Shown here one piece after another: positions 24,526 to 24,986 of a stretch of DNA of 28,891 nucleotides (its first letter is position 1; each line of letters opens with the position of its first letter). A model generated the notes under the pieces. It searched no databases. It saw nothing but the letters and a program-made list of their open reading frames with translations, and was not told the origin of the DNA. This stretch comes from a virus. Position numbers and translations under genes: made by a program. The stretch spans positions 1-28,891 of IMG/VR virus record IMGVR_UViG_3300028176_000001. One strand, written 5' to 3'.

Positions 24526-24952
24526 GTAGGGAGCTGATAAGGCTCAACTCCCGAAGCCTTACGACAGTCCAAAGCGGATTAGGCTTTGATAGAAGTGGAC
24601 CACCACCTTTCTACCTTCCTAGATGGGCATTGCGTTGGACTTTGACTGCCTGCGACCTTTCCGAGAGGTCTTTGATTGGTATCCTCTTGGGAAAGTGTTC
24701 GCAGTCTGCGAAGTCTCCGTGACAGAAGCACCTCGCCCGCTCACCACGGGTTTGACAGAGCAAGTTGCTACAAGCAACAAGCCCCAAGTCGTGGCGAAGT
24801 CCATCACTTATTTCCCGCATAGCAGGACTCCTTCCTTAAAAGAACTATTTAGTGGCTAGGGGCGGAACTCTGTCGCTATCCCCTCGAATAGCTTATTAGT
24901 TCTGCCCTAGTCTGTAACAACATTGTGCAAAGTTGCACCCCAAACCACTACT
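24526..24952 (-). ncRNA. Candidate large structured non-coding RNA (~430 nt)
   Basis: This is the only stretch above 300 bases without a convincing gene. It is visibly richer in G+C than its surroundings and full of perfect helices on the minus strand: a closing stem 24850-24855/24945-24950; hairpin 24925-24930/24933-24938; an extended stem 24856-24869/24898-24910 with inner 24875-24879/24888-24892; hairpins 24813-24818/24822-24827, 24764-24769/24773-24778, 24698-24703/24707-24712, 24654-24658/24666-24670 and 24570-24575/24583-24588; and a terminal pseudoknot (24529-24536/24545-24552 with 24538-24544/24555-24561). A consensus promoter lies just upstream, with the start near 24952, two bases from the first helix. 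Short open frames cross it on both strands but look spurious. It does not match tmRNA, RNase P, SRP, 6S or intron cores that I can recognise. Large phage RNAs such as GOLLD and ROOL are a precedent, but identity is not established. Confidence 0.6.
24529..24561 (-). promoter_or_regulatory. H-type pseudoknot just before the 23986-24507 gene
   Basis: 24538-24544 pairs with 24555-24561 (7 bp) and 24529-24536 pairs with 24545-24552 (8 bp). The single imperfect pair is G-U in minus-strand RNA but C-A on the plus strand, favouring the transcribed minus strand. The structure ends 21 bases before the ATG at 24507 and is followed by a T-run (ATTTTT), so it could instead end the non-coding RNA. Confidence 0.65.
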
Positions 24953-24958
24953 TACTTT

Positions 24959-24986
24959 ATTATCCTCCGTCAGAAAATTCTGTCAA
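24959..24986 (-). promoter_or_regulatory. Promoter of the structured RNA, with palindromic spacer
   Basis: On the minus strand TTGACA (24986-24981), a 16-base spacer and GATAAT (24964-24959). The spacer and -35 edge contain the inverted repeat CAGAA-TT-TTCTG (24971-24982), a possible operator. It points into the structured segment. Confidence 0.65.

Follow-up and report, generated by a model that had tools for sequence, protein, structure and literature searches.

The minus strand of the window, that is, the whole stretch of DNA analysed here (a linear virus record of 28,891 bases, which may be incomplete), carries at 24519..24952 a predicted structured RNA of about 430 nt directly before the lysis genes. 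Computation gives for this region a promoter match, structure on the minus strand, an intrinsic terminator, a hairpin competing with it, a position at the head of the lysis block, and no coding signal. We infer that the RNA is transcribed, that its terminator is leaky or regulated, and that some controller acts on it. Promoter, structured leader, and regulated terminator might together control the lysis genes, as in lambda pR'/tR' or AlpA/alpB; this is the explanation we favour, with chances rated somewhat short of even.

Every gene with a recognisable product in the window is on the minus strand: the DnaD-like helicase loader, terminase, major head protein, holin, and transglycosylase-like protein, with methyltransferase and HNH genes interspersed among them. 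The lysis block begins with g23986 (23986..24507, 173 aa), the gene immediately downstream of the RNA. This gene has no family match and is weakly papain/transglutaminase-like; since its structure model is poor (pLDDT 45), the fold matches are a hint only. It is followed by the holin (23647..23889; phrog_1299, 1.9e-18) and the lytic transglycosylase-like protein (23158..23559; PF19489 weak, phrog_4067). On the other side of the RNA, directly upstream of its promoter, is a small ORF of 55 aa (24995..25162) with a hydrophobic N-terminus, whose stop codon is eight bases before the promoter and whose length is below the 60-aa limit of the ORF list. Before it lies a gene for a 122-aa protein (25156..25524) of no family, having a charged coiled-coil-like N-terminus and a C-terminal hydrophobic segment. 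Elsewhere in the window, the gene of an HNH endonuclease (22003-22410) is followed by that of a cytosine methyltransferase (20960-22006), and both start with MKYLSLFSGIG. It looks as though the HNH gene was inserted near the methyltransferase start, with a duplication of the first codons.

The terminase gives an indication of the host. Its relatives in viral contigs are up to 75% identical, and none above 60% identity was found in cultured phages. The better matches in the genome collection include MAGs of a bacterium (64%), of Thermoanaerobaculia (53%), and of Candidatus Nomurabacteria (49%); of the 379 genomes in the phylum to which the last belongs, 5 have a related terminase. These matches suggest that Patescibacteria are the likely host of this phage. 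The hosts are probably tiny bacteria of a groundwater type, from groups with hardly any cultured members.

Promoter and fold of the RNA

A sigma-70-type promoter is located on the minus strand at 24959..24986, with TTGACA at 24986-24981, a 16-nt spacer, and GATAAT at 24964-24959. It matches the consensus at 11 of 12 positions, and the RNA start placed from it (~24952) is about two bases ahead of the first helix (24950), as the original prediction had proposed. Four minus-strand sites with an exact TTGACA score at least 10/12 in the window. All four are intergenic, although the intergenic share of the whole stretch is no more than 11% (3112 of 28891 bases), which supports their being real promoters; the other three (23062, 20938, and 16751) each precede other genes. 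The promoter-like site at 23034-23062 (TTGACA-17-TAAGAT), directly after the lysis block and just before the gene of the DnaD-like helicase loader, probably starts an early region.

The minus strand of the RNA region folds at -166.4 kcal/mol (z = -5.85), and none of 100 shuffles was as good; the plus strand of the same region is weaker (z = -3.35). A second, independent run, in which the ends differed slightly, gave z = -4.36 for the minus strand and -3.29 for the plus strand, and on neither strand did any of 120 shuffles reach so low a value. Over the two runs, the RNA fold was better than all 220 shuffles, with z values of about -4.4 to -5.9. Some 15-20 helices are predicted, and 109 Watson-Crick and 14 G-U pairs have a probability above 0.5. 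The G+C content of the RNA core is 0.52-0.55, compared with 0.28-0.42 around it and 0.39 in the window. This means that two parts of the original description, at least eight helices and a stretch of ~430 bases richer in G+C than its surroundings, are borne out.

When 134 non-overlapping 430-nt tiles from both strands were compared, the tile of the RNA ranked first (z = -5.33). Three minus-strand tiles that are coding or partly coding (10336, 22806, and 9046) came close to it, with z values of -5.1, -5.1, and -5.0, respectively, so that fold energy alone would not single out the RNA. It is the combination of fold, promoter, terminator, base composition, and absent coding signal that does so. 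Two further structures were noted in the window. A strong hairpin at 9328-9395, with 28-nt arms that are 75% complementary and a minus-strand z of -6.7, separates the gene for the major head protein from the next small one, and is likely a processing or terminator element. An inverted repeat of 14 nt (93% complementary) at 11167-11210 is inside the gene 11007-11657.

The predicted body of the RNA begins with a 5' domain (24850..24950), which comprises a closing stem UAGUGG/CCACUA, a hairpin GUGCA/UGCAC (pair probability 0.69), and a long hairpin that ends in GCUAUUC-GAGG-GGAUAGC with a probability of 1.0. The closing stem had been claimed as that of a multibranch; it is plausible, but its core probability is only 0.55. 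A hairpin UCCUGC/GCGGGA (24813..24827, probability 0.94) comes next. The central multibranch domain (24632..24807) is closed by GUG.UGGACU/AGUCCA.CGC and has three arms, 24797-24741, 24736-24708, and 24704-24650, in which most helices have probabilities of 0.9-1.0; folded alone, it gives -71.7 kcal/mol. A 3' hairpin GGUAGA..GGUGG/CCACU..UCUAUC (24588..24615, probability 0.93-0.95) precedes the terminal region.

The 3' end and a possible lysis leader

The RNA is predicted to end in the U-run at 24524-24520, which belongs to an intrinsic terminator (24520..24552) with a 9-bp stem GGGAGUUGA/UCAGCUCCC, a loop GCCUUA, and a tail UACAUUUUU. The terminator hairpin (24552-24529) has a pair probability of 0.98 and an energy of -15.9 kcal/mol. 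Its stem ends 21 bases before the start codon of g23986, which is 12 bases past the U-run. One imperfect pair had been said to be tolerable on the transcribed strand only, and indeed the U-G pair 24547-24534 becomes A-C on the other strand.

A segment just upstream, UAAGGC (24561-24556), is the complement of the terminator loop GCCUUA (24543-24538); the chance of such a loop match within 30 nt upstream is 0.4%. The terminal pseudoknot of the original prediction is therefore a possible pairing, but the element named terminal there is the terminator, and the UAAGGC strand (24556..24561), when extended, also pairs with the 5' arm and the loop of the terminator to form a competing hairpin. The latter gives the best predicted fold for an RNA truncated at 24536, where the last terminator arm is still missing. 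Once the last arm is present, the terminator beats it. A mutually exclusive terminator and antiterminator, a feature of the attenuator/riboswitch type, is thus present in the predicted prefix folds, in which the 3' end is laid out as an attenuator.

The leader that we favour would work as follows. The sigma-70-type promoter would start the ~430-nt RNA, which would fold as it is made. Near the 3' end, UAAGGCUU would first pair with GAGCCUUA, giving the antiterminator hairpin, and the terminator hairpin would displace it as soon as the last arm is made. Transcription would then mostly stop some 20 nt short of the lysis block, leaving a stable short structured RNA. The balance might be shifted by an antitermination factor, by a ligand or stalling that acts via the large upstream structure, or by an accumulating partner. 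Upon read-through, g23986, holin, and transglycosylase would be made; in other words, the element would time lysis.

The arrangement in the window is consistent with such a leader. Promoter, RNA, terminator, and lysis genes follow in this order on one strand, and the promoter before the RNA matches at 11/12, whereas no minus-strand promoter better than 9/12 is found from the terminator to the holin gene. On the other side, a plain leader requires no 430 nt of elaborate structure, and with long stems it is common for a prefix to form a competing hairpin. The lysis block may also be transcribed from upstream, since no terminator was detected on the minus strand from 25156 to the promoter. No antiterminator gene, including a Q-type or AlpA-like one, was recognised in the window, in which several genes are familyless and whose linear record may be incomplete.

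Phage lysis timing is explained mostly by holin and antitermination proteins. If the proposal is true, a large leader RNA gating the lysis genes adds an RNA layer to this timing, and a large phage RNA obtains a concrete, testable role in cis. A bolder version, that the RNA is an undescribed class of ~430 nt and three domains serving as a signal-sensing terminator/antiterminator switch that times lysis in a Patescibacteria phage, seems rather unlikely. Such an RNA lysis clock would exceed known riboswitches in size.

Relatives and alternative explanations

The covariance models of Rfam 15 gave nothing at gathering thresholds, and at E 10 a single snoRNA match that is due to chance. The RNA is not a detectable member of the GOLLD or ROOL families, and matches none of the riboswitch families or the self-splicing intron and HEARO models in Rfam. 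The suggestion that it belongs to no described family thus agrees with the covariance-model search. No homologue was found by blastn against phages and plasmids, by blastn and nhmmer over about 90-98 related loci, by covariance models built from this one sequence for the 5' and central domains in 75 sources, or by the central-domain model in 192 genomes. In a DNA search of 50 related viral records, the best matches were 13-25 bases, at chance level, and the 379 genomes from the phylum that includes the Nomurabacteria genome G052 gave one chance match of 23 bases. Exact-pattern matches in viral contigs proved to be chance when checked by blastn and nhmmer; a 30-base match in L078, located where a gene begins, looks like chance. 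As a candidate antisense to other phage transcripts, the RNA was rejected, the longest match being 11 bases compared with a shuffle mean of 11.5. Accordingly, the original reading as a phage non-coding RNA stands by computation in being large, structured, provided with its own promoter, and familyless, but not in being an undescribed class: there is no second copy in the collections searched. These may omit the records nearest to that of the window, so close relatives may exist.

Relatives of the phage itself were collected by several routes. The terminase led to 80 loci, none with the lysis block, and the portal led to 9 loci. The g23986 and transglycosylase routes led to one contig only (L098/L099). 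L098 has an orthologue of g23986 (45% identical) followed by transglycosylase, and a short ORF of 57 aa between them may be its holin; a 76-aa protein of L098 has a layout like that of the 122-aa protein of the window. The large RNA is absent from L098, and small ORFs occupy its slot. These ORFs (3493-4028) overlap, contain cysteines, and have strong Shine-Dalgarno-like sequences, unlike the window genes. Directly before the start codon of the g23986 orthologue is a long hairpin (z = -5.6 to -6.5), with a 12-base tail, CCTACATTTTTA, identical to that of the window. The 5' arm of this hairpin folds into a different hairpin in shorter prefixes. With hairpin and tail present and the RNA body absent, the terminator-like element is what the two share, and the large RNA is what varies. 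A hairpin, a U-run, and an ATG within a few bases were also seen at gene starts in the related contigs L034 (6887-6909), L079 (7829-7851), L003 (813-841), L016 (7664-7685), and L085 (540-566), as well as in L098 (4033-4100).

Since a plain leader does not account for so large and elaborate a fold, a stand-alone ornate RNA stays a serious rival, and we regard it as quite possible. It would be a GOLLD/ROOL-like phage RNA, abundant and made in infection, with a role in trans or as a particle consisting only of RNA, and the terminator would merely end it. A strong promoter and a terminator framing one extended fold, the multibranch domains with a possible pseudoknot, and the intergenic position are all in keeping with this, and the lysis block of L098 does without the RNA, which is therefore dispensable there. 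However, the single known copy gives no covariation, the RNA is shorter than GOLLD and ROOL, and no tRNA was found in the window; GOLLD and ROOL are often, but not obligatorily, near phage tRNA islands. An unlinked RNA would need neither a terminator abutting the next gene nor a built-in competing hairpin. Given these two features, a free-standing RNA is no more likely than a cis-acting leader.

It is decidedly unlikely that the RNA was recently acquired, as a possibly mobile or host-derived element inserted between two lysis genes and having no function in lysis. Its G+C content (0.52-0.55 against 0.39) would fit an acquisition, as would the other cargo, the small cysteine-containing ORFs, in the same slot of L098; but structured RNAs in A+T-rich genomes are G+C-rich anyway, flanking repeats are absent, and no match was found in genomes of the likely host phylum, Rfam, plasmids, or phages. 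A coding or decayed coding segment with incidental structure (minus-strand ORFs of 69 and 62 aa and a plus-strand ORF of 78 aa) is very improbable: AAGGAAGGAG, which precedes the ATG at 24820 and the hairpin 24813..24827, resembles a Shine-Dalgarno sequence and the 62-aa frame begins with a hydrophobic stretch, but Shine-Dalgarno sites are not seen at the phage's genes, the ORFs inside the RNA have no Pfam or PHROG match, the fold is strong as described above, and the two minus-strand ORFs score -0.44 and -0.33 bits per codon, below every phage gene including the lowest (-0.08, itself a doubtful ORF), which rules out protein coding by codon usage and agrees with the initial view that the stretch has no convincing gene.

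Comparison with known systems

The classical case is the lambda late leader, of about 190 nt, in which the pR' promoter, the 6S RNA, and the tR' terminator precede S-R-Rz; the late promoters of other lambdoid phages are related to it. The same order of promoter, non-coding leader, intrinsic terminator, and lysis genes (holin and endolysin in lambda) on one strand is found here as sequence features. The two are not related in sequence, the lambda leader is not elaborately folded, and lambda has Q, whereas no Q-like gene was found in the window. Known late leaders are shorter than 430 nt. The put RNA of HK022, a structured phage RNA acting in cis on the polymerase, resembles the proposed leader in its cis action, but with about 65-70 nt is far shorter.

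To our knowledge, the functions of GOLLD and ROOL are not established. Like the RNA described here, they are large, multibranched, pseudoknotted (predicted in the present case), and have no protein product, but they comprise 659 nt or more as against about 430 nt; GOLLD rises during lysis (PMC12286853). The present RNA differs from both in having no Rfam match and no tRNA island, and in abutting a terminator and lysis genes. The prophage RNA IsrK of Gifsy-1 exists in terminated and read-through forms (PMC4825925). As in our proposal, a terminator-ended RNA is accompanied by transcripts that read through into mRNA; IsrK, in contrast, is a small RNA adjoining an antiterminator gene and works in trans on the read-through form of its own transcript (PMC4825925).

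The alpB lysis genes of Pseudomonas aeruginosa are controlled by a terminator between the promoter and the first gene (PMC7969949). Control there is by a protein, AlpA, loaded at the promoter, whereas no AlpA-like gene was found in the window, and a large leader structure like the present one is not known from that system. The arrangement is nevertheless shared: an intrinsic terminator lies between the promoter and the lysis genes in both cases, and in the AlpA/alpB system it is termination that decides lysis (PMC7969949).
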